Shown piece by piece: positions 16,525 through 33,641 of a stretch of 64,000 bases of DNA; positions within the stretch are counted from its first letter, which is position 1, and each line of letters starts with the position of its first letter. The notes below the pieces were generated by a model. It was not told the DNA's origin, did no database searches, and saw only the letters and a program-made list of their open reading frames with translations. A program made the translations under genes and the position numbers. Source of the stretch: Aurantiochytrium sp. KH105 (taxonomy: Eukaryota; Sar; Bigyra; Thraustochytrida; Thraustochytriidae). The DNA is taken from assembly GCA_003116975.1 (NCBI GenBank), contig BGKB01000116.1, positions 1 through 64,000 on the forward strand, given 5' to 3'.

Positions 16525-19025
16525 ACAGCGGTCACTCAAATCGTGTTCCCGCGCTGGGCTCTCACCCTAAAAGCGTTGAGATCTTCGTAAATCATCAACT
16601 CTGTGTCCAATTGTTTCCACCTACCTTTGACTCTTTCTCTTGCCTCTTGTTCTTGTCCTGTTCTTGACACGCCCACTAGACATTTGACATCATCTCAGAT
16701 GGTCACTGTGGGAATGAACTGAGGGCTCAAAGTAAGCGCCAAGCTTTTGCATGCACCTGACGATGTGCAGTCTCTTCTTTGAGCTTTCGCAAGCACGAGA
16801 CTCCGTCCAGACTTCACCTCGAGCTTTTGCAAGCTCAAGACTTTGTCCAGACTCCGCCTTGAGCTCCTGCAAACAAAAGACTTTGTCCAGACTCCGCCTT
16901 GAGCTCCTGCAAACAAAAGACTTTGTCCAGACTCCGCCTTGAGCTTTTGCAAACAAAAGACTTTGTCCAGACTCCGCCTTGAGCTTTTGCAAACAAAAGA
17001 CTTTGCCTCCACCGTTTGCTTGAGGGCTACGCTTTGAGACTCGATTCGCCCCTAGAGCATGTTGAACGCCTTATTACAAGGATGACGATGCACAATGTCG
17101 ATTCTTCATATTTTCATCATCACGCAAGCCATTTCCATCCCGGCCAAAAACGGCACGTAGGTGCCAACGATCAAAGTTCGAACGTTGCCTTCAATAATGG
17201 CATGAAATGTGGCCGCAAGCGTCGATTGAAGCCGACACCATGCTGCAGGCGATGCGGACGAGATCAGCACGGCAGCCGCTGCACTGAAAAGAACCTCTAC
17301 CGCAAATATTGCCGAGCCCAACGCAAGAAACTCACGTCTGCTACTTAAAGGGTAAGAGACGCACGCACAGGACTGGCATGAATTACGAGAATTCCTTACA
17401 ATAAAGACAGATTATGCCCTTCCTGCAGGGAGAGGACAGAAATCCTACAGAGAATGGCTTATTGCCTCGGTCCGCGTTCAATTGCGCTTTGCCTATGTGC
17501 ATTTGACCAGTGTGAGCTTTGTCGTTCTGGCCGGCGCGATCTGCGTCGCCGGGGTTCACGATGATGCAGCTACCGAAGGTAGCGCATGAGACGGCGCGGG
17601 TCTTCTCGCTCACGAAAGTGGAGCGGAGCAACGATGGACACGATGTTGCAGTAGTCGCGTAGCACGACCTTTCGGTCCGTTGATAATGGAATTGATTTGG
17701 TGCATCAAGAAGATCGAAACTCTCAACAAGATCCCCGTACGCTGAAATATGAGCTTGAAGAGTGCCTAACTGATCCGTGCAACCGGCTACAGCCTAGCCT
17801 GAGCGTCGAAAGCGCGTCTGCGCCTGCGCTTGCTGGAAAGGACCTCCAGTTCTTTGAGGCCGAGGTTGAGATGTACAAGAGGCCCGCGGAAGCCGTATCG
17901 GCGCAGGGAGAGCACGCAAAGCACGAGTTGAAAGAACTTCTGCTTCCATCTCAACTCTGCGGAGTCAAAGACCCCGCGAGTCGAAGTGCATTTCAAGTAT
18001 GAGAACTATCAGATGTGCGTCTTTTCGTCCGCGTTGAAGCCGGTCTTACGGAATGCGTCTTTGTAGTAGAAGCGCCTTTTTTGAAATGCCGAGGCGAAAG
18101 CACTTCCCCTTTCATAGTTGTGGCTTGTAACGGGATTGCCTTTCGACGTTGCTGGAAAGAAGCTTTACCATAGAAATTGCACAAGAGCGAGTTTGCCTTC
18201 TTCTGGACCTTAGAAAGGTTTTCCTGTCTTGGCAATGGCTGCTTCAAGCAACTAAAAAAAAAATAGGTTGCAGCCGCATGTACGTGGGACTTTCCCGTCC
18301 ACATCGTCATTGGCATCAAAGTATAGTGCCTTGATGTCGCGGGTCTCTTTGCGCAGGTCTAGAAAGAATTACAGAATCGCGAGCTCCTCGTCAGACAAGC
18401 CCGGGTCAGTCGGCCACGGCATGACTCTTTGCTCCGCCGCCCACTGAATCTTCTTCTCCGCTCTTAAACCTGCCGCTGCCCTGCCGCGCTCGCGCTCCTT
18501 GATCCACTCCCCACTCCTGACTCTGCGATGGCAGTGTATAACACGCTCTTCGTACTGCTCGCAGCGCGTGCACCGAAGAGACGCGCGACGGACGCGCACG
18601 TGAAGAGACGCGGGGCGGAGGTGCGCGCACGACACGCCGCGGCGCGTGCGGGAGGACGAGACGGGAGGGACGACGTCCCGCGCGTCGCAGCAACCCGGCC
18701 GCGTGCTGCGCGGGTGCGCCGCGCGAGGGCAGGCGCCAGCAAAGCAAGAGATGCAGGAAAACGAGGACGAAGCAGCAGCAGCATTACGCAAACGAGGAAC
18801 AGGCGGCCGAAAGTTCACGAGCGTCCAGGAGCTCGAACACGGCGGAGGCAGCAGCGAGCGAAGCGGGCGCGTAACAGAGCGAGAGGCGGGCCAGGAGCGA
18901 CGCATTGCCACGAACGGTCCCAGCGCGGTGTGAAGGGGGCGAACGTCTGCTCTGACTGTGAGAGCAGGAAAGAAAGCGAAGAGCGTGTGCACATTGGTGC
19001 TCAAAACAAGGAGGTAGAGACGACC
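16525..19025. other. Gene-poor region with minisatellite and decayed coding fragments
   Basis: After the AMT 3' flank comes a 40-bp minisatellite. At about 17100-17340 a minus-strand frame encodes a hydrophobic segment (AIFAVEVLFSAAAAVLISS) that looks like a remnant of a membrane protein but is not part of any intact gene. Around 17940-18320 lies sequence resembling 36840-37060 at nucleotide and protein level. The GC-rich stretch 18400-19020 directly precedes the LRR-kinase-TIR gene and may be its promoter or an extension of its first exon. Confidence 0.45.
16759..17005. repeat. Minisatellite, 40-bp unit, about six copies
   Basis: Units start at about 16759 (degenerate), 16799, 16839, 16879, 16919 and 16959, with a truncated unit from 16999. 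The last four are nearly identical, differing mainly at a CTCCT/CTTTT site; the first two are diverged. On the minus strand two frames stay open through the array because the 40-bp unit rotates the frame and no rotation creates a stop. Confidence 0.93.
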
Positions 19026-21314
19026 ATGAAGAAGCTCACTGCGCCCATGAAGCGGGTGACTCGTCCCCAACGCGCTGATCGTGTGCCTTCTTTCGAGCAA
19101 GACGCGGTCGATCAAGATGATGCTTCGCTCCGTTATCTTTCCCGCGGTGACGAGGTCGTCGACGAGCATGGGAACGAAGAAGAGGACAACGATGACCACA
19201 GAGATATGGCCGATCACACGTACAGAGAGAAACACGAAGGAGAACGTGATGAAGACGACGATGAGGACGGAAATCATCACGATGATCACAGCGGCGGAGG
19301 CAGAGGCGATGGCGATGGCGATGGCGTCAGTGGCGGGCACGAAGAAGAGGACAATGGTGACGAAGATGGCGACGGTGGCAGGAAAGAGGATGAGTCGCCT
19401 GAGGAAGAACGCCTGGAGAAAGGTCTCAGTGGGCAACGTGCGGCCAAGAAGGCGATCGAACTGATGCGGAACGGCATCAAAGACATTGAGTGCGTTGAAA
19501 ATCTTCTCGGGAGGGAGTGTGACCTTCATGCGTTCCGACCTATTGACAAATTTCTTCAAAATTATTTACAGTCTTGCCAAACGTGGTATCGGCGACGAAG
19601 GGGCCTTGGCGCTGGGAGAAGAGCTTGGTGCGAACACCTCGCTCGTTTCGTTGAAGTAAGCTTGCGTTTGAGCGGGATTTGGTTTGATGGAAGCGCGTGC
19701 ATATTTGCGCAAGGATAGAACCGGAGTGGTTCGAAATTGAATGCACTATTGCACAATGCCAGGAGGATACTGACTTGATGTGCTTGTCGCCACTACCCAG
19801 TCTCGAAATGAATGGGATTCATGGAGAGGGTGGCGTTGCTCTGGCCGAAGCCCTGCACCAGAACTCCTCGCTCACCACGCTTTCGTGAGTCAAAGCTTGT
19901 CTCGAGATTGATCGGGAAACCTGTGCCAAGAAAAGAGACTCTGGTAAAGGCAGCTGGATATGAGCGTCGTAACAACGGCGTAATCTAAAAATCATGATAC
20001 TGACGATCATTAATTTTGAATTAATGCAGTCTTAAGTGCAACAGCATTGGTGTCGATGGCGCGGTTGCTTTTGCTGACGCATTGAGCATGAACATCACAC
20101 TCTGCTCGCTGAAGTAAGTTCGATCAGACGTTTCAATCAAAAAAGCCCTCGTCCGATGATTGTCAGGATCCCCTGGTCAAGCACTGAGCTCTGGTGTAGT
20201 GTTGTTCGATGTCAAGGTGACACAAAGTAAAGAGAGGGTCTCTTGGAAAAATAGTTGATCGAATACTTACAGGGCTCGCTTATTGTCACGGCTTCAATAG
20301 TCTTGGAAGCAAGCCTCACGAGAACCGCAATAACATTGGGGACGATGGGGTCTTAGTGCTTGTCGATGCTCTGGGCGAGAATGCAGTACTCACATCCTTG
20401 GAGTAAGTTAGCGTCTCGAGAGAGGTGCAGAGGACTTGTGACGACACTCTCTGGGCTGTATCACAAATCTACATTGCTGACATCTCGATTTATCACACTG
20501 CCAACACACAGTCTTAGCTTCAACAGCATCACCGAGGTTGGCGCCAAAGCAATTGCAGGCTTGCTCATCACAAACACGTCGCTGCAACTTCTCAGGTAAG
20601 TTCTGATTCTTGATAATGGGCAACAAGGCGGCATACGTTGATTTCTGCGTGAAAAAAGGCAGGTGGGCGTTCGTAGCGAAGAGCAGAGAGGCGAGACTGC
20701 GCCGAGACGATGGCGACGACGACATGAGGGTGGACACTGACAGCAATTTTGCGCTCTTCAATGAATGCCATGCCACGATCATTATGCACAGTCTTGAGGA
20801 AAACAACATCGGCGATGATGGCGCCATTGGGCTTAGGGAAGGCTTGGCCAAGAACATCTCGCTTTCATCTTTGAAGTATGTTGGTTCGGCTGGGCTGTCC
20901 TGCGTCTGATTGGAGGCAAGACTTTCGATTGGAGACAAGAAGGCGGCATGCGTGGATGTTTGCGTGAAGGCAGGTGGGCGCTCGTGACGGAAAGCATAAT
21001 GGCGAAATGGCGCGAAGACGGCGAAGGCGACATAAGTGTGGACACTGACAGCCATTTCGCGCTCATCAATGAATGCCACACCACAATCATCATGCGCAGT
21101 CTTCAGGAAAACAACATCGGCGACTCAGGCGCCGTTGGGCTCGGGGAAGGCTTGGGCAAGAACAGCTTGCTTACGTCTTTGGAGTAAGTTGGTTCAATTG
21201 TGTAGTTCGGAGGTTTGATTGGAGGCAAGAAGATATCATGCGTAGACTTCTGCGTGAAAGTAGGCAAGTGGGCGCTCGTGGCGGAGGAATAAGACGGGAC
21301 TGCGCCAAGACGAA

Positions 21315-21365
<51 letters not shown>

Positions 21366-24300
21366 ATGAGGGTGGACACTGACAGTCATTTCGCGCTCAT
21401 CAATGAATACCATGCCACAATCATCATGCACAGTCTTGGTTACAACAGCATTGACCCAATTGGCGCCGTTGGGCTCGGGCAAGGCTTAGACAAGAACATC
21501 TCGCTTTCATCTTTGAAGTAAGTTGGCTCGGTTGTGTTGTCCTGCGTTTAATTGGAGGCGAGACCTTAAAATGGAGGCAAGAAGGCGCCATGCGCGGATA
21601 TCTGCGTGAAGGATGGCAGGTGCGCGTTGTGGCGGAGAGCAGAAAGGTGGGACTATGCCAAGACGATGGCGACGGCGACATGAGGGTCGACACTGACAGC
21701 CATACGCGCTCATCAATGAATGCTATGCCACAATCATCATGCAGTCTTGAGGGAAACAACATCGGCGACGACGGCGCCGTTGGGCTCGGGGAAGTCTTGG
21801 GCAAGAACAGCTCGCTTACGTCTTTGAAGTAAGTTAGTCCGGTTGTGTTGTCCTGTGTTTGATTGGAGGCAATACTTTCCATTGGACGCGAAAAGGCGGC
21901 ATCCGTGAACTCCCGTGTGAAAGATGGCAGGTGCGCGTTTGTGGCGGTGATCGGAAAGATGGGCCTGCGCCAAGACGACGGCGACGGCGACATGATGGTG
22001 GACACTGACAGCCATTTCCCGCTCATCAATGAATGCAATGAATGCTATGCCACATCAAATTACCATGCACAGTCTTGAAGGAAACAACATCGGCCCAGAT
22101 GGCGCCGTTGGGCTCGGGGAACACTTAGGCAAGAACAGCTCGCTTACGGAACTGAAGTAAGTTGATTCGGCTGTGTTGTCCTGCGCATGATTGGAGGCCA
22201 GACTTGGGATTGGGGGCAAGATAACGGCATGCGAAGATTTCTGCGTGAAGGATGGCAGGTGCGCGTTCGTGGCGGAGAGCAGAAAGGCGGGACGACGCGA
22301 AGACGACGGCAACAGCGATTTGAGGGTGGGCACTGACAGCCATTACGCGCTCATCAATGATTGTCATGCCACAACCATCATGCACAGTCTTGGTTACAAC
22401 AAGATCGGCCCAGATGGCGCCGTCGGGCTCGGGGAAGGCTTGGGCAAGAACAGCTCGCTCACAGAACTGAAGTTAGTTGATTCGATCGTGTTGTCTTGCG
22501 TTCGGTTAGAGGCAATACATTTAATTGGAGGCAAGGAGGCGGCATGCGTGGATTACTGCGTGAAGGATGGCATGGCAGGTGGGCGTTCATGGCGGATATC
22601 AGAAAGGTGGGCCTGCGCCAAAACGGCATCGACGGCGACGGCGACAGCGACATGAGGGTGGGCACTGACAGCCATATTTCGCTCATCAATGAATGCCATG
22701 CCACGAACATCATGCACAGTCTTGAACAAAACAACATCGGCGACGATGGCGCCGTTGGGCTCGGGAAAGCTTTGGGCGAGAATAACTCGCTTACGTTTTT
22801 GAAGTAAGTTGGCTCGGTTGTGTTGTCCGGAATCTGATTGGAGGCCAGTCTTTCCACTGGACGCGAAAAGGCGGCATGCGTGGAATTCTGCATGAAGGAT
22901 GGCAGGTGCGCGTTCGTTGCGGAGAGTTTATGACCTGGAGTGCGCCAAGACGATGGCGACGGCGACATAATGTTAGACACTGACAGCTAATACGCGCTCG
23001 TCAATGGATGCTATGCCACGATCATCATGCACAGTCTTTATTGGAACAGATCGGCGACGANCTTGCGCTCTGAGTGTTGCTGACGCCCCGTTCAATGATT
23101 GACAGTGAGGCTGGCTGGGTCTCTGCTGCAATGGCTGGCTGTGGCTGCCAGTGAGGCAAATGACTGGCAAAGCTGATTCTGCATTTGCAAGCCGCATTGC
23201 TCGACTACGACTGACTAGCTATTGTCGAAAGCGCCCGAATCACCCCGTGCCGCGAACTTGCACTGAATAGCAGCCTGGCAGGCCAAACAGCAAGTCCAAG
23301 GAGTGATTCTGCACTTGCGATGGGCGGTTCTGCACTTGCAAATGTGTCGAGCAGCACTTGCAATCTGCAGCTGTGTGTAGTGCCTATGCCCCGCTCAGTA
23401 TTGACAGTAAGGCGGGGTGCGGCTGCTCACTGCTGCAATGACTGGATAATAGTAGAGCAAATGACTGGCTGCCACTTGCAAGCTGAATTGCTCGACTTGC
23501 TGAATAGCTATCAGAGACACTTGGAACAGGAAAACAGCCCTATTTGACAAGCGATTGAACGGTGAGTTCGTGGAGACGCGACCGTGCGGAAGACGCCGCA
23601 ATTGTCAAATTTCTGCGCGAGTTTTCTGCGCAAGTTTGCCCCCCGAGTAATAAATCAGTGCTAAAAACGCACTTCAGATACACAGTCTTGAGAGAAATAA
23701 CATCGGCCCAGATGGCGCCATTGGGCTCGGGGAAGGCTTGGGCAAGAACAACTCGCTTATGTCTTTGAAGTAAGTTGATTCGGTTGTGTTGTCCTGCGTT
23801 CGATTGGAGACAATACTTTGAATTGGAGGCAAAAAGGTGGCATGCGTAAATTTCTGCGTGAAGGAAGGCAGGTGGGCGTTCGTGGCGGAGAGCAGAAAGG
23901 CGGGACTGCGCCAAGACGACGGCGACGGCGACAAGAGGGTGGACACTGATAGCCATTTCGCGCCTATCAACGAATGCGATGAATGCCATGCCACAATCAT
24001 CATGCACAGTCTTCGCGCGAACAAGATCGGCGACGATGGCGCCGTTGGGCTCGGGGAAGGTTTAGGTAAAAGCAGCTCGCTTTCATCTTTGAAGTAAGTT
24101 GGTTCGGCTAAGTTGCCCTGCGTTCGATTGTAGGCAAGATTTGGGATTGGGGGCAAGAAGGCGGCATGCGTGGATTTCTGCGTGAAGGATGAAAGGTGCG
24201 CGTTCGTGGCGGGGAGCAGAAAGGCGGGACTGCAGCGTGCCGACGGCGAAGGCGACATAAGTGTGGACACTGACAGCCATTTCGCGCTCATCAATGAATG

Positions 24301-27300
24301 CCACACCACAATCATCATGCGCAGTCTTCAGGAAAACAACATCGGCGACTCAGGCGCCGTTGGGCTCGGGGAAGGCTTGGGCAAGAACAGCTTGCTTACG
24401 TCTCTAAAGTAAGTTGGTTCAGTTGTGTCGTCTGGGGTCTGATTGAAGGCAAGACTTTGGATTGGAGGCAAGAAGGCGGCATGCGTGAAATTCTGCGTGA
24501 AGGGTGGCAGGTGCGCGTTTGTGGCGGAGAGCAGAAAGGCGTGACTGCGCCAAGACGACGGCGAAGGCGACATGAGGGTGAACACTGACGGCAACTTCGC
24601 ACTCATCAATGAATGCAATGCCGCAATCAATCATCATGCACAGTCTTCGATACAACAACATTGGCGACTCGGGCGCCGTTGGGCTCGGGGAAGCCTTGGG
24701 CAAGAGCTGCTCGCTGACGGAACTGGAGTAAGTTGGTCCGGTTGTGTTGTCTTGCGTTTGATCGGAGGCAAAACTCTGCATTGGTGCAAGAAGGCGGCAT
24801 GCGTGGATTTCTACGTGAAGGACGGAAGGCATGCGTGGATTTCTGCGTGAAGGATGGCAGATGCGCGCTCGTGGCGGAGTAGAAAGGCGGGACTTTGCCA
24901 AGGCAACGGCGACGGCGACATAAGAGTAGATACTGACAGCAATTTCGCGCTCATCAATGAATGCAATGGATGCCATGCCACAATCTTCATGCACAGTCTT
25001 CAGCAAAACAACATCAGCGTTGCTGGTGAGATGTCGATTGTGGAAGCTCTCTTGACTGAGAATGATGGTCTACGTGAAATATCGTACGTTGCCTTTGGGC
25101 ATCACTTTTGCCTTGGACAAAGTCTTGAATTTCTGCATACTAAAATTTTCCGTCCTCTTGTGTTAGTGGCCTGCCTGATCTCCCGTCAATTAAATGGTCT
25201 ACGCTGCTCAGAACTTCGAAAGGCGATGCTCGGATGAAGCGAATCCATGAGTATCTTTTCGATAGGAATGAAGAGAAATGGACCTCGGCCGCGCATGAGT
25301 TGGCCAGGACACTTGCACATATCTTCGCGTGTTTTCTTATCATTCTCACTCAAGATTACGCGGAGATGCAGGAGACGCAGATGCGTCTCGAGAACCCTAA
25401 TTTTTGGCTATTGAAGCACGAAAGTGCGTACGAAAAGGAGAAAGAGGGACAGGATGAAGACGCCGATCTTCCATTGATCCATGCACTGTTTGACTGTCAC
25501 GCGACAACAACGCATTACTCGCTTCCGCTACGCTTTTGCGATGAAGTTCTTATGAAGTGTCTGTCTCTCAAAGATGGTCTCCTGTTGATGAAGGCTGAAG
25601 ACGACGGTGGCCGAACGGTTCGTTCACTTGCGCTCACTAATAAGAATACCAAGGGGTGGGCCAAAACGTATGGCACATATCTCAATCGTTACAGTGTCAT
25701 GGAAGGTCCTCCAGTTCATGAATCCAAAACATGTGCGGTTCACTTTGCGACGAACATCCTAACAAACAGAGCTGTGGCGCTCAAGATCATGCGTAAAAAA
25801 GACCAGTACGATCGCGAGATTGTTGCACGCACAGCTGGAGACGGCGGAGATGCGAATCTTGAAGGCTGTTTGCCACTTCTTCACCGCAATGATCCGAAGT
25901 TCGCTGAGTGCCTAAACGATGAGCTGTGCCTTGTGATGAAAGAGGCTCGCGCTCGCTTTTCGAAGCCATCAACACGGAGCGTTTTGCCGGCCGCGATCTG
26001 CAAAAGATCCGCACGATCGCGTACAAGATTGTTTCTGCGGTTCAAGAACTTCACCAAAGTGGTCGCATCCATGGCGACATAAAGCCACGCAATGTGGTGC
26101 GTGTCAGCGATCCCAAACTGCACACATTCTCAGATGAAGACAAAGGAGATCGTCTCCGCGTGCCAAAAAAGTGGCGATACAACGTGACGGGAGAGCAAAC
26201 TGAGGACATCATCAAAGAAGAAGAGTGGCAACTCATCGATTTGGACGCATCGGCACCAATTTCGACGCCGAAAAAGAAAAGTCTTGTCACGGAAAAGATG
26301 AGCACTGGCTATGCAGCCCCTGAATTGGCCAAATGGCATTTCCTGCACAAAGCAAACAAGGACAAGGCGCCCCAGGCCAACCCAGCGATTGATGTTTGGG
26401 GCTTTGGCGTGGTGCTCTTTCAGATGCTCACTGGCACGAAGCTGTTCATGGTCGATGAGTCAGACGACAATCTGGTGACAACTCGTGACAAGACGGAGCT
26501 CATGAACTGGCTTGTGCTGGACGACGAGCGCCTGCAACGTATCCAACGACGTGGTCGCGACACCACAGACGATGATAGTGACGACATGGCGGACACGTCC
26601 AACGAAAATGGCCTCAATGAGGGTGAAGACGAGATTGAGGCTGCCCGTGACCTCGTTCGTCTGTGCTTGCGTGGCGACCCGGAAGAGCGCATCACCGTCA
26701 AGCAGATCATTGAAGAGCATCCTTTCTTTGAGACATTTCAAGGGGGGCTGTGCGAGCCGAGAGATGAGGATGACATCGACGCAGATACTCCAGCTCGCGA
26801 GATTCGTGCAAGAACGAGAGCGCGATTCTCACGCCGCGTGATGAGCCTTCACAGGCGTGTTTTCTCAACGCGATTTAGTCTTTTCGGCCGCACAACACAA
26901 GCCCGACTGCACAGAAGTACGATTTCGAGCGAGTTCTACAAGCAACGTGCTCGCAACGATCTCATTAAGCTTCCCACATACCACTTCTTCCTATCGCACA
27001 TGCAGGTGCAGGCGGGGGGAATTGCCAAGGATCTTGCAGCTGGCCTTGAGCGCCACAGAATGTCATCTTGGATTGATATGAATGCTGCCGAGATCCACCT
27101 TCGAGGCATGCATCGCGGGGTGCTCTCATCGCAGCGCTTTGTGATGGTGCTCACCAAGGATGTACTTTTCCGGCCCTACTGTCTCGCAGAACTGCATTTT
27201 GCCGTTGAGTTCTTTGGCTCGACAGAGGATGGGCTGGCAAAGAAGATCTTTTTCATTGTCGAAGAAGATGAGCGGTTCGATCCATGGAAAGATGGCGACT

Positions 27301-28226
27301 TTCCGTGGCTTTATCCTTCCGAGGAATTTACTGCGGGCAACATCCAGTCGGATCGAGAAGAAGCTGGCGATGATGGCGCTTCCAGTCATAGCACAGGCCT
27401 GAGCAAGCTGAGCGCATGCAACTTTTGGTCAAAGAGGAAAGTCTATGTGGGTTCTTCTCGACGTGATTTACAGCCATTTGACAGCCACGAGGCGAATGCA
27501 GCAAGATCTGAATCTGAACTCGTGACTTTGCGCAAGTCATTGGACAAGCTAAAGTTACAGAACTGGAATGGAGAAATTGTAGGGTCAGAACAGATACTGT
27601 CCAATGCGAGAAAGGCCTTGGAAAGTTGCGTGAAGATACCCTATCGTCGTCGTCAGTTCGAAGAAGAGGAAATGCTGCGTGCCTTGGCACAGTGCGCAGG
27701 ATTCCAAGCCATCCCACGTCCCAAGGAAAAGTATTCTCCTGATGAGGAAGAGCTTCGGGTGGCAGTCGTGGGGAAAAAGAAGTCCAAGGCAGTCAAGAAA
27801 CTTGGAGTCAAGCTCGGTGAGCAAATCGGGCTTTCTGTGGATGACCAAGATCCTCACGTCATCGTGGTTGTACTCGAAAAAGATTGCTGGGACGAAGTGC
27901 AAAAGTTTTGGGAGAACCTGCGGGGTCAGTCCGAAGACGAAGGAGATGAAGAAGAAGAAGAAGAAGAAGAAGAAAAGGGACATCCCTTGCTGGCAGTTGC
28001 GGTCTGCGGTACTGAAGAGAAATGGGATTTCAAGGACCAGGATAACTTTGAACCTGCGCTCCGTGCAAGACTATTTGACCATCTTGAGGTGCTGACGTGG
28101 CGGGATGCTCCTGAAGTCGAACATCGGGATTCCAAGAATTACTACTTGGAGCACGAGGAGCCGGCGCTTTTACATGAGCTTTGCTCACGTGCGAAAAGGC
28201 TGCAACGGTCTTTTCTCAATGCCTAA
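19026..28226 (+). CDS. LRR-protein kinase-TIR multidomain protein, 19 exons, with apparent frameshift
   Basis: Model: 19026-19489, then LRR exons 19572-19655, 19801-19884, 20030-20113, 20301-20402, 20512-20595, 20792-20875, 21100-21183, 21434-21517, 21745-21828, 22073-22156, 22388-22471, 22720-22803, 23686-23769, 24010-24093, 24325-24408, 24644-24727, 24997-25083, and a last exon 25212-28226. All junctions are phase 2 with GT...AG borders. The acidic leader ends MRNGIKDI and joins the first LRR in frame. Each LRR exon encodes one 28-residue ribonuclease-inhibitor-type repeat (pattern NNIGDDGAVGLGE). The kinase has VALKIM, HGDIKPRN, a DLD in place of DFG, and GYAAPE. The TIR-like domain runs about 26967-27330 (YHFFLSHMQ...RPYCLAEL). 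The predicted length is about 1,642 residues once a one-base gap near 25939 is bridged. The start is uncertain: an in-frame ATG also lies at 18528. It is probably an intracellular sensor. Confidence 0.75.
21315..21365. repeat. GACGGC hexanucleotide run inside an LRR intron
   Basis: About eight GACGGC units expand a shorter GACGGCGAC motif found at the same place in sibling introns. Confidence 0.85.
23035..23061 (+). pseudogene. Broken LRR exon ending at an undetermined base
   Basis: The usual ATGCACAG acceptor is followed by TCTTTATTGGAACAGATCGG, which matches sibling exons but has lost one base (siblings have AACAAGATCGG). It then stops at the N at 23061, after which similarity to the array ends abruptly. 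It was left out of the gene model. Confidence 0.8.
23062..23685. other. Non-array sequence interrupting the LRR array, with internal direct repeat
   Basis: About 620 bp unrelated to the LRR units. It contains two imperfect copies of a roughly 140-bp segment, at about 23085-23230 and 23387-23520. They share blocks such as GCTGCAATG, GAGGCAAATGACTGGC / GAGCAAATGACTGGC and the stretch around ATTGCTCGACT. No coding potential is evident. It could be an insertion, or a misjoined contig given the N at its left edge. Confidence 0.7.
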
Positions 28227-28998
28227 ACGCATCTAAAATTGTTCTGTTTATTGCCTTTGTTACAAGAAATCGCGGTCGCCGCCTGAGGCCATGCTACTGA
28301 GAAGGAATCGAGTGTATCTTACCTTCAACTCGAGACCGTGTTGCCTTGTGTGCGCCATCTGAACAGGGGTTTAGCATGAGTGACAGCGGTCCAAACAAAT
28401 GAACTTGCTGGACATGGACATGTTATTCTTCGCTTTAAGCGCCTACCGTGTACAAAGAGAGCTACGTCGGACTCTGTTCTAGCAAAGAGAACGGTACTAT
28501 CCTCAGATAACAAACGAATGAAAAGAAGAATTTGGTTTCACAAAACGTGTAAGAGGTTCCGCTCCGTGGTGAGGATGAAACGGGAATTTAGAGATTGTAA
28601 GCTTCTCAAGCTGCTGCTTGGAGATTGCTTTTATGGTTGGTGTTTTTCGGGTCTGCCGGCTTCCGGCATCGACTTCGGTCGCTGCCTAGTTTGCTCGGCT
28701 CAGTAGTCCCAGATTGCAGGCCTACGGCTATCTTATGCTAGTCTGGTTCGGGGGCTGGTCCACGCTCCAGCGTGGACTTATGGCGCTGCCTTTTGCTTGC
28801 CACTAACTCCGCGTGATATCACGGGGCGGGGCCGATGCGGAGCCCGTTGTCCCTGCGTCGTGTCTCTCTAGAGCAGCTTGCCTCCTAGTTGACGATATTT
28901 TGGTGACTAAAAGCTTGGAAAAGAGGGAAATATCGTCAACTAGGTTATGGGCCTTGAACCGATCACCTGAAAGTACAATAGAATCGGTTCCTGACACA
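28227..28998. other. Intergenic region with palindromes before the gag-like relic
   Basis: Contains the 3' flank of the LRR-kinase-TIR gene, the near-palindrome GTCCACGCTCCAGCGTGGAC at about 28758-28778, the 12-bp palindrome CGTGATATCACG at 28811-28822, and a 17-bp inverted repeat listed separately. No gene is supportable. Confidence 0.55.
28884..28944. repeat. Perfect 17-bp inverted repeat with 27-nt loop
   Basis: Left arm CCTAGTTGACGATATTT (28884-28900) is exactly complementary to the right arm AAATATCGTCAACTAGG (28928-28944). It lies about 55 bp upstream of the first ATG of the gag-like relic and could be an element terminus or an RNA hairpin. Confidence 0.85.
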
Positions 28999-30285
28999 AT
29001 GGCTTCCACGGACGATGATGAAAAGGATCTTCTCGAAGAGATTGACCGAGAAATTATGACCATTGATAATGGACAGGATCAAGCACCCAAACCTCCGCAC
29101 CAGACACGAGCAACGCTAGCTCTGCCCCAGATCAAGGATGACCTTGAATTGAAATGGCCGAAGTTCGTGCTAAAGGTGAATGGATACAGGAACGATCATA
29201 CCTCACGGAGGAAGACATCAACGCAATTTCGGACCCAGTCATAAAGCGCCGGATTGATTCCAAACCCTGTCCGGAGACGTCTCGGGTCTGCTCGAGGACT
29301 ACGAAATCGATGGATCCGGCCTCAAAGCATGGGAAGTACTCGAGAAATCTCAAGACCGAGCATCAGTCAAGAGCAACGCCACCACACCTCCGGTACGGCA
29401 AGCAGAAAGGCACGCCAGGGGACGCTTCCTGATGTCATACGCTACTTCGCGGAGGTACGACGGATAAGACAACAGAATCAGGCCCGAAACATCACCGTCG
29501 CCGACATAGGATCACTGTTGGTTCTAACTGACTTCCAGCGGATCGCTCCAACACAATCGCTTGCCTCTATCAGCGATCTCCTCACAAAAGCGACGCTAAA
29601 TCCTTTTCAAGAACGACAGGGACTAATGGACACGCACCAGTCGACCCACGAAGAAGGAGGTGCCACATCAAACCCATCTGAACGCAACACCGAATCCCCA
29701 GGTACGAGAGCGTATCTGGCACGAGGACGCGAAGTCAAGTTCTAGGCGGCGCCAGGGAACCATCAAAACTGCAGACGCCGTAATGGTGCTTGCAGGCCCC
29801 TCTGTTGCGAGTATAAAGGGGACGTATTCTGCCCGGAATGTCGTTCCAACTCGCACAATGCCGCAGCATGCCGAAGGGGTTCCGCCAACGGCCGTGAGAA
29901 GAAAAGGAAACGTTTGTCCTCGCACCAGAAGCGGAACGAGAAGGCGAATCGTCAACTACCTCCTGACATTAGATCTTTGGAAAGGTCCACTTCTTTATCG
30001 TGGTCCAACACCAAGGGTACGGAAACGCGGTATCTTCCAGAGACTGTTGGGATTGCGCAGCAATTTCGCGCTTCCTTAAGGAAAGAGATCACGATCGATC
30101 GCCTCGCCGTTGATTCCGCTTTGCGATTGGCGAGAGGCCAGGACAATCAGTCACTTCATTCATGCGGGGACTTACTCGAAAGAAATGCGCGATCTGGCGA
30201 TGAATTGACTGCCAGAGAGTCTCGTGCTTGTTTCGTTTCTCTCACTCGCCGTAAACTTGCTTTCACGAATGACTCCAGATTCTAG
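28999..30285 (+). pseudogene. Decayed retrotransposon gag-like coding region with CCHC zinc knuckle
   Basis: Protein-like sequence continues across the region but jumps among all three plus-strand frames. It begins MASTDDDEKDLLEEIDREIM, moves to a frame with RSYLTEEDINAISDPVIKRR, and then to one with LSGDVSGLLEDYEIDGSGLK. It next continues as LPDVIRYFAEVRRIRQQNQA, meets an in-frame TAG at 29743, and then reads on to 30285. The last part holds CPECRSNSHNAAAC at 29830-29871, an exact CX2CX4HX4C zinc knuckle typical of retroelement gag proteins, followed by a very basic region. No protease or reverse transcriptase is visible nearby. An old cellular gene with the same knuckle is a less likely alternative. 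Confidence 0.6.
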
Positions 30286-31702: not shown

Positions 31703-31789
31703 CGATGGCCATGGAGAATAATGCGCGCGCGCGGCGAGCAAAAACCGAACGAGGCCGCCGGCGGCCACGCGCGCGCGGTCGGGGAGCGC

Positions 31790-31837
31790 GCGGGCGGGCG
31801 GGAGGGCGGGCGGGCGGGCAGGCAGGCAGGCAGGCGC
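31790..31837. repeat. GGGC/GGCA run with G-quadruplex potential
   Basis: About ten G-triplet-containing units, GGGC passing into GGCA, ending 25 bp before the first ATG of the downstream gene. Confidence 0.75.
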
Positions 31838-31862
31838 GCGGGCGGCGCGCGGCGCGGCGAGG

Positions 31863-33641
31863 ATGATGCAGGGCGGCAGCATGGCCGCGGCATCGCAGAT
31901 GGGCGGCGCCAACGCTCGCGGGCAGAGCAGCCGCCGCCGCGGCCGCCGCGGGGAGCGGCGCGGCGCGTGGGCGCTGGCGCTGGGCGCGGTGGCGGTGGCG
32001 GTCGGCGCGCTGGCAGCGAGCGCCGAAGCGGAGACGGCCTCGTGCGACGGCCAGGCCAAGGGCGTCTCGTGCCTGCGCAAGCCCGAAAAGTGCCTCACAT
32101 GGCGCAAGGCGCAGTTCATCGAAAGCTTCCCGGCCTTCGATGACAGCTACTTCATCCGCAAGCTGTACAAGTGCAACAGAGACCCGCGCAAGTCGCGCTG
32201 CTGCTGGGCTGACGCCGGCATGAACTATATTGGCGTCGATGAGTCGGCCGCCGAGAGCACCGTGAGTAGCGAGGACGCTGAGGCTCTCCCCGGCATTACC
32301 TGCGAAAACCCGCAGCGCCTGGCCAATGGCTCCTGGACCGATCTCAAGCTCAACGTGGTCGGCGACTTTGAAGAGGTCGACCTCTACGAGGGCAACTACT
32401 CGTTTCCCATTTACGGAGACGCTGATCCGCCCGCAGCTTGCACCTTTCTCATCTCCAACATTCGCTACCAGCTCGACGACGAGCAAGGCTCGTCCACACT
32501 TCCCTCCATGGGCGTGGTCGATCTCTCGAGCCCACGGAAGGGTCGCTGCAACCGCTACCCCAACAAGGACACGTGCGCGTGTAACACCGACGACGGTTCG
32601 TGTCCGGGCGTCTGCCTCCAGCTCAAGCGCCACTTTGAATGTCAGCACTGCACACGCCAGGAGTGCGCAGCCTTTTGCGACGGGGACTTTAGCTGTGCAG
32701 CCATGGAATACCAAAACAGCACGGAAATGTGCTGGATGCTCTACCGACCGGGCTACATCCAAAATGTAGACCTGACTGACCTGGGGGCGGGCGTCAGCGA
32801 GAATGTCCCTTCCTTTACCTACGCGCAGCCCCTCTCGGTCCCGCCTCCCATTGAATCTGGATCCGCTCGAAGCGGCATCGACTGCTACGGCCGCTCGCCG
32901 GACGCCGCACTCGACACAAAGTCTGTCGAGGTCGTCGACGATGACGGCAATGGCGGCCGTTGCGCCATCTCGGACGCTTCCCAGCGCGTGCAGCGATGTG
33001 GGTCCTATTTTCCGCACATGGGCCAGTGCGGACCTGCCGAATGCGCCTCGCTTTGCCGACAGGACCCGCTCTGCAGGGCGCACGAGTACAACGAGAACTT
33101 CAAACGCGGCCAGTGCTTTAGCATTTTCGAGGAGCCTTCTGGCGTTGTCGAAGGCACGACCGGCACCTATCGCTGTTTCGCTGTGGATCGTTCTGTCGAC
33201 ACATATGATAGCGACTGGTTCCACGACTATCGTAACCACGGCTTTAGGGATCTCTCGACCGAGCCTGGCGGTGTCCCCATCGATCTGTACGACATTGTCG
33301 GTGGCAATCCTGGCGCGACCACGCAGCTCGCCTCGAGGCCGACCGCCAGCCCGACGGAGAGCCCAACGGCAAAGAAGGCTGGCCGAGGACCGTGTTCCCT
33401 CAACTCGAAGCGCGGTCGTTGTTGCCACGCCATCAGTTCCTCCAGACGCCGCTGCTGCAAGGGCAAGATCGAGACCACGGAGGGACGTCAATGCTGCACC
33501 ATCGTGTCACACCCCAATTATGACAAAATCGCCAAGTGCTGCAGCAAGTACACCATTAATGGCGAGACGTACCGTGATTGCGTCAGCAACCCTTCGACGA
33601 GCTCTGGGGAATACGCTGCCATCATCCGCACCTTTACATGA
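31863..33641 (+). CDS. Secreted cysteine-rich protein with PAN/Apple-like segments, paralog 1
   Basis: 592 residues from the first of two adjacent ATGs (31863, 31866); a third in-frame ATG at 31881 is also possible. A basic N-terminus and a hydrophobic stretch (WALALGAVAVAVGALAASAEA, split here as about residues 36-56) form a signal peptide. Shared family layout: a small Cys motif ending RCCWADAG, an ENPQ..NGSWTD block, a first PAN/Apple-like segment around HCTRQECAAFC, CYGRSPDAAL, a second around CGPAECASLCRQDPLC, and DSDWF-type DWFHDYRNHGFRD. A short PTASPTESPT linker leads to a C-terminal module with repeated CC pairs. The protein is probably extracellular or wall-associated and may bind glycans or proteins. 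Unlike its two paralogs it has no acidic tail. Confidence 0.8.
   Translation: MMQGGSMAAASQMGGANARGQSSRRRGRRGERRGAWALALGAVAVAVGALAASAEAETASCDGQAKGVSCLRKPEKCLTWRKAQFIESFPAFDDSYFIRKLYKCNRDPRKSRCCWADAGMNYIGVDESAAESTVSSEDAEALPGITCENPQRLANGSWTDLKLNVVGDFEEVDLYEGNYSFPIYGDADPPAACTFLISNIRYQLDDEQGSSTLPSMGVVDLSSPRKGRCNRYPNKDTCACNTDDGSCPGVCLQLKRHFECQHCTRQECAAFCDGDFSCAAMEYQNSTEMCWMLYRPGYIQNVDLTDLGAGVSENVPSFTYAQPLSVPPPIESGSARSGIDCYGRSPDAALDTKSVEVVDDDGNGGRCAISDASQRVQRCGSYFPHMGQCGPAECASLCRQDPLCRAHEYNENFKRGQCFSIFEEPSGVVEGTTGTYRCFAVDRSVDTYDSDWFHDYRNHGFRDLSTEPGGVPIDLYDIVGGNPGATTQLASRPTASPTESPTAKKAGRGPCSLNSKRGRCCHAISSSRRRCCKGKIETTEGRQCCTIVSHPNYDKIAKCCSKYTINGETYRDCVSNPSTSSGEYAAIIRTFT

Follow-up and report, generated by a model that had tools for sequence, protein, structure and literature searches.

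Domain organisation of the locus

We analysed a 64,000-nucleotide stretch of the Aurantiochytrium sp. KH105 genome (contig BGKB01000116.1, positions 1 to 64,000; hereafter the window) and focused on a candidate receptor gene at positions 19026-28226, for which an initial annotation had proposed leucine-rich repeats (LRRs), a protein kinase domain and a TIR domain in one continuous model. Exon-by-exon re-derivation found that 19026-28226 encodes an acidic leader, 17 LRR exons, a kinase domain and a TIR domain. Judging by its paralogues, the gene belongs to a real, expanded family. Below, C and L followed by a number denote contigs and loci of this genome, and the features of the window copy are as follows:

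18596-28719, no strand: 10.1-kb segment that holds the gene and is absent from the apparently homologous C44 (collinear alignment on both sides)
19026-19489, + strand: leader exon, very acidic and of low complexity, without a hydrophobic stretch (translation, phase and hydropathy)
19572-20595, + strand: proximal LRR exons 1-5, starting at 19572, 19801, 20030, 20301 (102 nt) and 20512
20792-22803, + strand: amplified LRR cassettes 6-12, each with a single 84-nt exon and spaced 308-334 bp apart
23036-23061, + strand: broken 18th LRR exon, which stops at the window's only N (23061)
23686-24727, + strand: amplified LRR cassettes 13-16; LRR 15 has the protein sequence of LRR 7
24997-25083, + strand: final LRR exon of 87 nt; it is a distinct terminal repeat, found also in C69 and C9
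25167-25941, + strand: linker domain and kinase N lobe (VALKIM), without a Pfam match on its own
25941-25953, + strand: approximate place of a frameshift relative to the paralogues (frame comparison)
25953-26729, + strand: kinase C lobe with HGDIKPRN (non-RD), DLD and GYAAPE (Pfam Pkinase and conserved residues)
26970-27353, + strand: TIR domain, with a putative NADase glutamate in CLAEL (TIR_2, E = 2.5e-7)
27642-28217, + strand: C-terminal domain, common to 21 of 22 aligned members (L042 was read only to a point before it)
28224-28226, + strand: stop codon of the model (frame)

The 17 LRR exons extend from 19572 to 25083, and 15 of them are 84 nt long, one is 102 nt and one is 87 nt. All 17 have AG acceptors and GT donors (16 GTNNGT and one GTAAGC), all are entered in phase 2, and none contains an in-frame stop. 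Each 84-nt exon encodes a 28-residue repeat with a split boundary codon, and phase 2 is kept across the junction between the final LRR exon and the kinase exon, which begins at 25167. The leader and 17 LRR exons of the initial annotation were therefore upheld one by one, and its continuous model stood as far as the splice phases carry it, that is, through the LRR exons into the kinase exon, but not within the kinase, which is split over two frames near 25.94 kb. The initial annotation had also called for profile searches, and within 25923-28223 Pfam matched both Pkinase (E = 5.8e-21, over the C-lobe portion of the profile) and TIR_2, which exceeded its cut-off (E = 2.5e-7). The N lobe, in a frame of its own (25144-26079), gave no Pfam match at E <= 1, and the LRR_6 match was weak alone (E = 0.079, for one LRR exon in 22191-22655). 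Pfam found no NACHT, NB-ARC or Roc-COR match in the window pieces or in the kinase-TIR members L044, L010 and L024.

The leader DNA is 73% identical to a stretch upstream of the paralogue in C225. Because the leader frame is open back to 18468 and the C225 paralogue has no ATG at the place equivalent to 19026, the start codon of the window copy is uncertain. The proximal LRR exons occur in the same order in paralogues in C69 (exons 2-5) and C225 (exons 1-5). After the single N within the LRR array, about 600 bp (23062-23685) are unlike the cassettes by eye and could be an insertion or an assembly join.

LRR, kinase and TIR domains are joined in an expanded family

The kinase-TIR half had 79 matches in its own genome at E <= 0.001 (165 candidates, 59 scored). 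Grouping the genome matches gave about 29 kinase-TIR loci if fragments are counted, and 11 pairs of members have an identity of 80% or more; since two haplotypes also appear to be present, the number of genes is smaller than the number of loci. Kinase-only matches lie in C182 and C96, and a few others match the C terminus or the TIR only. Outside the genome, no relatives were confirmed in viral contigs or prokaryote genomes.

In two paralogues a single open frame runs through LRR, kinase and TIR without a break. In L044 (C53), a single 1313-aa frame matches LRR_6 (E = 4.3e-18), Pkinase (1.6e-16) and TIR_2 (1.4e-9) in Pfam; in L042 (C41), a 1570-aa frame of which 1352 aa were read, LRR and kinase were recognised by eye and the TIR by Pfam. 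A third member, L010, matches Pkinase in one frame over profile positions 14 to 263 (E = 7.2e-23). Of 20 member loci, 13 showed LRR motifs in their first 1 kb, and in C69 (L039) a full LRR exon array reaches the kinase frame. The claim that one gene encodes the domains in the order LRR, kinase, TIR is borne out by the two single-frame paralogues. The initial annotation had named a lack of TIR matches in profile searches as a ground for rejecting its model; Pfam TIR_2 matched 22 of the 22 member regions cut out for the search at E <= 0.01.

One locus, L030, and its near copy L036 have a 506-aa kinase frame without a TIR, with an LRR motif upstream in L030.

Conserved kinase and TIR residues and the frame break in the window copy

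We aligned 22 of the 25 extracted members residue by residue, leaving out L014 (damaged) and L030 and L036 (no TIR). The kinase lysine is kept in all 21 members that cover its position, and the HxD aspartate, its lysine and asparagine, the DLD aspartate and the APE glutamate are present in 22 of 22. By this sequence criterion, the residues of an active kinase (VAIK Lys, HxD Asp, Asn and DxG Asp) are conserved in the family. The catalytic loop reads HGD, with the RD arginine replaced by glycine in 21 of 22 members and by alanine in the remaining one (a non-RD kinase), and DLD stands in place of DFG. A kinase profile built from 20 of the 25 members best matched CLK and DYRK structures.

A profile-profile comparison of the family TIR with the other TIRs of the genome gave 98.7%. 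The putative NADase glutamate is present in 20 of 22 members, including the window copy. The TIR profile weakly matched bacterial TIR structures (best E = 0.0038), and in two of them the CLAEL glutamate aligned to a glutamate that we take to be the catalytic one. A search of the PDB with the TIR stretch as a single sequence returned five matches (best E = 0.12), among them one TIR protein (E = 0.73). AlphaFold2 prediction of 26931-28223 from a single sequence gave no usable fold (mean pLDDT 33.8, pTM 0.19).

The C-terminal domain, aligned in 19 members, had no PDB match at E <= 1. A second, degenerate TIR at the C terminus, which appeared TIR-like by eye, was not supported: hhalign gave 0.2% against the family TIR and 1.3% against the other TIRs of the genome, and Pfam matched TIR in only 1 of 19 members (E = 0.0077).

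In the window copy, VALKIM lies in the open reading frame 25144-26082 and HGDIKPRN in the open reading frame 25923-28226, so the two kinase lobes are in different frames; paralogues aligned across the break read through without interruption. We calculated the ratio of nonsynonymous to synonymous divergence (dN/dS, NG86) between the window copy and five paralogues on each side of the break. On the 3' side, dN/dS was 0.18-0.31 against four paralogues and undefined against L015, where synonymous change was saturated. On the 5' side, it was 0.28-0.37 against four paralogues and 0.14 against L015. Over both sides, nine of ten comparisons gave 0.14-0.37 and one was saturated. These ratios suggest that purifying selection acted on both halves until recent times, or that the break is a base-calling error; the frameshift would then be either a recent loss or such an error.

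Damaged kinase-TIR copies with in-frame stops were also seen at C95:87980-89161 and C171:36703-38814, and the piece in C95 and the window copy share 89% identity.

Similar LRR cassettes lie upstream of two gene classes

We use cassette for what is typically one 84-nt phase-2 LRR exon within about 300-350 bp. From LRR 6 of the window copy onward, exon and intron together form direct repeats, spaced mostly 308-348 bp apart. One LRR per exon, a single phase and tandem duplication, the criteria of an exon-shuffled LRR receptor, were all found.

A search of the genome with a 33-base cassette pattern, allowing up to 3 mismatches, gave 104 matches, against 0 for the reversed control; 100 of the 104 were listed. 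Among the matches listed, at least 51 fall in one array (107225-126198, or 107.2-126.2 kb) upstream of the member in C9. Reading 9.9 kb of this array gave 26 stop-free LRR exons, of which 25 measure 84 nt and one 87 nt; two 90-nt non-LRR matches of the exon search were set aside. The C9 array is predicted to encode a protein far larger than that of the window copy, and the arrays vary in size between three exons and at least 51 cassette matches. Further listed matches are located upstream of kinase-TIR genes in C29, C42, C57, C69, C116, C225, C300 and C21, upstream of a C-terminal fragment in C215, and at a contig end in C66.

Listed matches were also found upstream of TIR frames of 858-914 aa in C90, C101, C303 and C342. 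The C90 frame, the only one of the four that was read, holds Roc, COR-A and TIR_2 and is preceded by three LRR exons. Cassettes of C90 and of the kinase-TIR gene in C69 are 90.8% identical over 565 bp, introns included. This near-identity suggests that two gene classes draw on one cassette pool, and we infer that cassettes have been exchanged between the kinase-TIR and Roc-COR-TIR classes. The locus in C90 (L045, C90:3500-8700) is in itself an apparent LRR-Roc-COR-TIR gene with the same cassette type.

For variability among the repeats, we extracted 64 exons, of which 54 passed a core filter and 51 were unique. The filter fixes 7 of 27 LRR positions, and the test uses the remaining 20. At five positions predicted to form the concave face, which we assigned by the usual LRR convention, mean nonsynonymous change (pN) was 0.506, compared with 0.148 at the rest of the 20; only 17 of the 15504 possible five-position sets score as high. 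The ratio to synonymous change (pN/pS) was 1.07 on the predicted concave face and 0.67 elsewhere. Amino-acid change in these exons is concentrated on the predicted ligand face.

An apparently homologous site lacks the gene

The right flank of the gene (window 31722-33400) has one other strong match in the genome, at 97% identity, in C44. Positions 423486-425368 of C44 align to window 16742-18595, and 425367-426864 align to window 28720-30159, with a 2-bp overlap at the junction; nearby aligned blocks are 80-90% identical. The 10.1-kb segment holding the gene lies between these alignments, and C44 contains none of the listed kinase-TIR matches. No target-site duplication and no terminal repeats were found at the C44 junction, so that a deletion and an insertion both fit. 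From the identity and collinearity we infer that C44 is the other haplotype.

The genome as a whole appears to hold two haplotypes. Matches to polyunsaturated fatty acid (PUFA) synthase occur mostly in near-identical pairs on different contigs. Pieces of PfaA-type PUFA synthase score up to 930 bits and none passes the whole-model cut-off of 1010, below which 11 of 14 control genomes also match. A ketosynthase-matching frame of 2081 or 2152 aa lies on the other strand near the PfaA-type pieces, an arrangement of PUFA synthase that is typical of thraustochytrids. The PfaA-type matches are a pointer to a thraustochytrid, and the host is probably a labyrinthulomycete. An 18-mer taken as a labyrinthulomycete 18S primer had no match, and a motif taken from the 18S 3' end matched once, with a mismatch, next to a small-GTPase gene and hence outside rRNA.

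Predicted location of the receptor

We scored hydropathy over 19 residues, taking 1.6 as the threshold for a possible membrane segment. The initial annotation had reported neither a signal peptide nor a membrane segment. From the ATG at 19026 there is indeed no hydrophobic stretch (best -0.28), in agreement with the former claim if this uncertain start codon is the true one. The latter holds for the window copy, whose best value between LRR and kinase is 1.52, and for 19 of 23 other members, which do not exceed 1.6 in the helix between LRR and kinase, but not for four of the 23: L010 (1.83), L011 (1.65), L017 (2.02) and L019 (1.76). The single-frame members L042 and L044 reach 0.63 and 0.64, and in many members this helix contains histidine together with arginine, lysine, glutamate or aspartate. 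The LRRs of L044 match those of ribonuclease inhibitor and NLRP proteins, and ribonuclease-inhibitor-type LRRs are cytoplasmic where known. Because the leader is not hydrophobic, most members stay at or below 1.6 and the LRRs are of this type, an intracellular location is likely.

Comparison with known receptor families

We compared the family with published systems, using the portions of the cited papers at hand. The initial annotation had regarded the order LRR, kinase, TIR as undescribed. This does not hold: choanoflagellate Kinase TLRs have LRRs, a transmembrane segment, a kinase and a TIR in one protein (Richter et al. 2018, PMC6040629), and because of this precedent the domain order itself is not new. 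The family shares that order with Kinase TLRs and differs from them in that 19 of 23 members show no transmembrane segment by hydropathy, in a host that is probably a stramenopile, and in its exon cassettes, of which the portion at hand describes none for Kinase TLRs. Choanoflagellate Kinase TIRs (PMC6040629) are alike in that a single protein lacking a membrane segment joins kinase and TIR, but they are defined by kinase and TIR, whereas here an LRR array precedes the kinase. Within the data set of that paper, both classes occur only in choanoflagellates.

The closest match to the exon organisation is found in brown-algal LRR-ROCO genes, which have one LRR per phase-2 exon, exon shuffling, selection on the concave face and a proposed immune role (Teng et al. 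2024, PMC11378527, which cites Zambounis et al. 2012 on the same genes). Each has a counterpart in the present family, which for the concave face is a concentration of amino-acid change and for the immune role a proposal. The brown-algal exons are 72 nt long, encode 23-residue LRRs and lead to a Roc-COR output, whereas here the exons are of 84 nt, the LRRs are 28-residue repeats of the ribonuclease-inhibitor type and the output is kinase-TIR; the LRR-Roc-COR-TIR gene in C90 carries the same cassettes within this same genome. Oomycete LRR-receptor kinases (PMC2939053) likewise combine LRRs and a kinase in one stramenopile protein, but have one transmembrane helix by definition, and the portion at hand mentions no TIR.

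NLR proteins (NLRP and plant TNL) are also LRR sensors, and the LRRs of L044 resemble those of NLRP, but NLR proteins contain NACHT or NB-ARC, for which Pfam gave no match in the window pieces, L044, L010 and L024. In the animal TLR-MyD88-IRAK pathway, LRR sensing, TIR assembly and kinase activity reside in a membrane receptor, an adaptor and a kinase that are separate proteins, and IRAK1 is a non-RD kinase; here the same three functions would lie in one protein.

In the open-access literature we found neither TIR or LRR-kinase-TIR receptors in thraustochytrids, nor cassettes common to two outputs, nor a Kinase-TLR-like order combined with one-exon LRRs. A thraustochytrid transcriptome paper (PMC8917795) counts LRR and kinase domains, and a word search for TIR in the text at hand returned only an author name in the references.

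A putative immune receptor family and alternative explanations

We favour, somewhat better than evenly, the reading that the window gene is a member of a polymorphic receptor family, most likely intracellular and immune, that senses through LRR arrays and signals through kinase and TIR. The LRR horseshoe, built of one exon per repeat, would bind a ligand or a guarded protein on its concave face. Binding could cluster or open the proteins, upon which the kinases would trans-phosphorylate and the TIR domains pack together. Because its glutamate is mostly conserved, the TIR might then cleave NAD+, or else recruit some of the other TIR proteins in this genome, which number at least 150; the outcome may be an alarm or cell-death response to infection. 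The intracellular immune-type sensor of the initial annotation is thus retained as the best reading, with its location graded as likely in view of the four members with a possible membrane helix.

Several observations weigh against this reading. The concave-face pN/pS is only 1.07, which suggests positive selection at most, and as much variation is seen at positions 8 and 9 (0.574 and 0.439), which directly follow the strand and are outside the concave set. The ligand of the LRRs could be an endogenous partner that does not vary. In 2 of 22 members, L015 and L016, which form a 95% identical pair, glycine stands in place of the TIR glutamate. The empty site was seen at one locus; the C69 flank, the other locus tried, gave a 67% partial match at C171. 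The window copy is itself frameshifted between the kinase lysine and HGD, and four of 23 other members exceed 1.6 in the helix between LRR and kinase. Function is deduced here from sequence alone.

The same protein could instead sense internal or environmental cues (stress, development, or self and non-self at mating), with the kinase as main output and the TIR as a scaffold. The two members without the TIR glutamate and the TIR-less kinase frames of L030, with its upstream LRR motif, and L036 are consistent with this, as is the response of brown-algal LRR-ROCO genes to several stresses (PMC11378527). We consider it about half as probable as the immune reading, because variability specific to one face, large differences in cassette number and a copy absent from a homologous contig fit antagonistic recognition better. 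A membrane-anchored receptor near the choanoflagellate Kinase TLRs, with LRRs on one side, kinase-TIR in the cytosol and the helix spanning the membrane, is unlikely. The helix between LRR and kinase does sit where Kinase TLRs have their membrane segment, four of 23 members exceed the threshold in it, and the true start codon is unproved; against this stand the 19 members that do not exceed it, the charged residues and histidine of the helix in many members, the low values of L044 and L042, the ribonuclease-inhibitor-type LRRs of L044 and a leader without a hydrophobic stretch.

Two further explanations concern the gene model itself. An LRR gene and a separate kinase-TIR gene might adjoin and have been joined by the initial annotation, and the introns are predicted only. 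This is largely refuted by the single-frame paralogues, the unbroken phase 2 between the final LRR exon and the kinase exon, the LRR motifs that 13 of 20 loci show in their first 1 kb and the full array of C69 in L039, and we regard it as very improbable. Alternatively, and compatibly with the other readings, the window copy could be a decaying pseudogene of an otherwise working family, a possibility to which we give serious weight, a little short of even. The kinase frameshift, the LRR exon broken at 23061 and the absence of the gene from C44 argue for decay, and other copies are damaged (C95 with three TAG, C171 with several stops). Conversely, the window copy is otherwise open over 767 codons, with dN/dS of 0.18-0.31 there against four paralogues, and base-level assembly errors are suggested by the N within the array and by L013, a paralogue that by eye also appears frameshifted.

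Returning to the immune-receptor reading, we tentatively propose, with rather less confidence than in that reading itself, an expandable recognition system in a unicellular protist. A shared, recombining pool of one-exon LRR cassettes would serve at least two chassis (kinase-TIR and Roc-COR-TIR), with arrays from three exons to more than fifty cassettes, exons whose skipping would leave the frame intact, and whole genes that one haplotype may have and another lack; alternative splicing or recombination within the population might perhaps add diversity. Most interesting here are a cassette system that serves two chassis and the homologous site without the gene, and these, with the cassette arrays and the frameshift, were absent from the initial annotation. 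If the proposed function is true, the logic of the animal TLR, adaptor and kinase would exist as one protein in a distant single-celled lineage, and large polymorphic LRR receptor sets would arise by exon-cassette duplication also outside animals and plants. The same cassettes on two output modules would give a direct view of how sensor arms move between signalling systems. Because thraustochytrids can be cultured and are infected by viruses, the immune-receptor idea is testable.

Other TIR genes and neighbouring features

A TIR_2 search of the genome gave 258 candidates; 150 of them were scored, and every one exceeded the cut-off. A listed kinase-TIR locus is found within 5 kb of only one of these 150, and there the TIR_2 match is on the opposite strand and in a different frame; the matches, at least 150, are therefore additional to the kinase-TIR family. 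At least 68 of the 150 are accompanied on their own strand, within 4.5 kb, by a Roc match; this comparison used 81 of 150 Roc rows (a selection from the frames longer than 430 aa), from 381 Roc candidates. In L041 (C137), a single 1238-aa frame has WD40-like repeats and Roc-COR by eye, with Roc and TIR matches, and many frames of its size match both Roc and TIR. The TIR partner is ankyrin in L005; in L001 Pfam sees only the TIR, with armadillo-like repeats by eye.

Downstream of the gene, window 28884-28947 contains a 17-bp inverted repeat with a short loop, partly present in C44 and possibly a small mobile element. Overlapping frames at window 29245-30285 contain a gag-like zinc knuckle motif by eye and may be a retroelement remnant.

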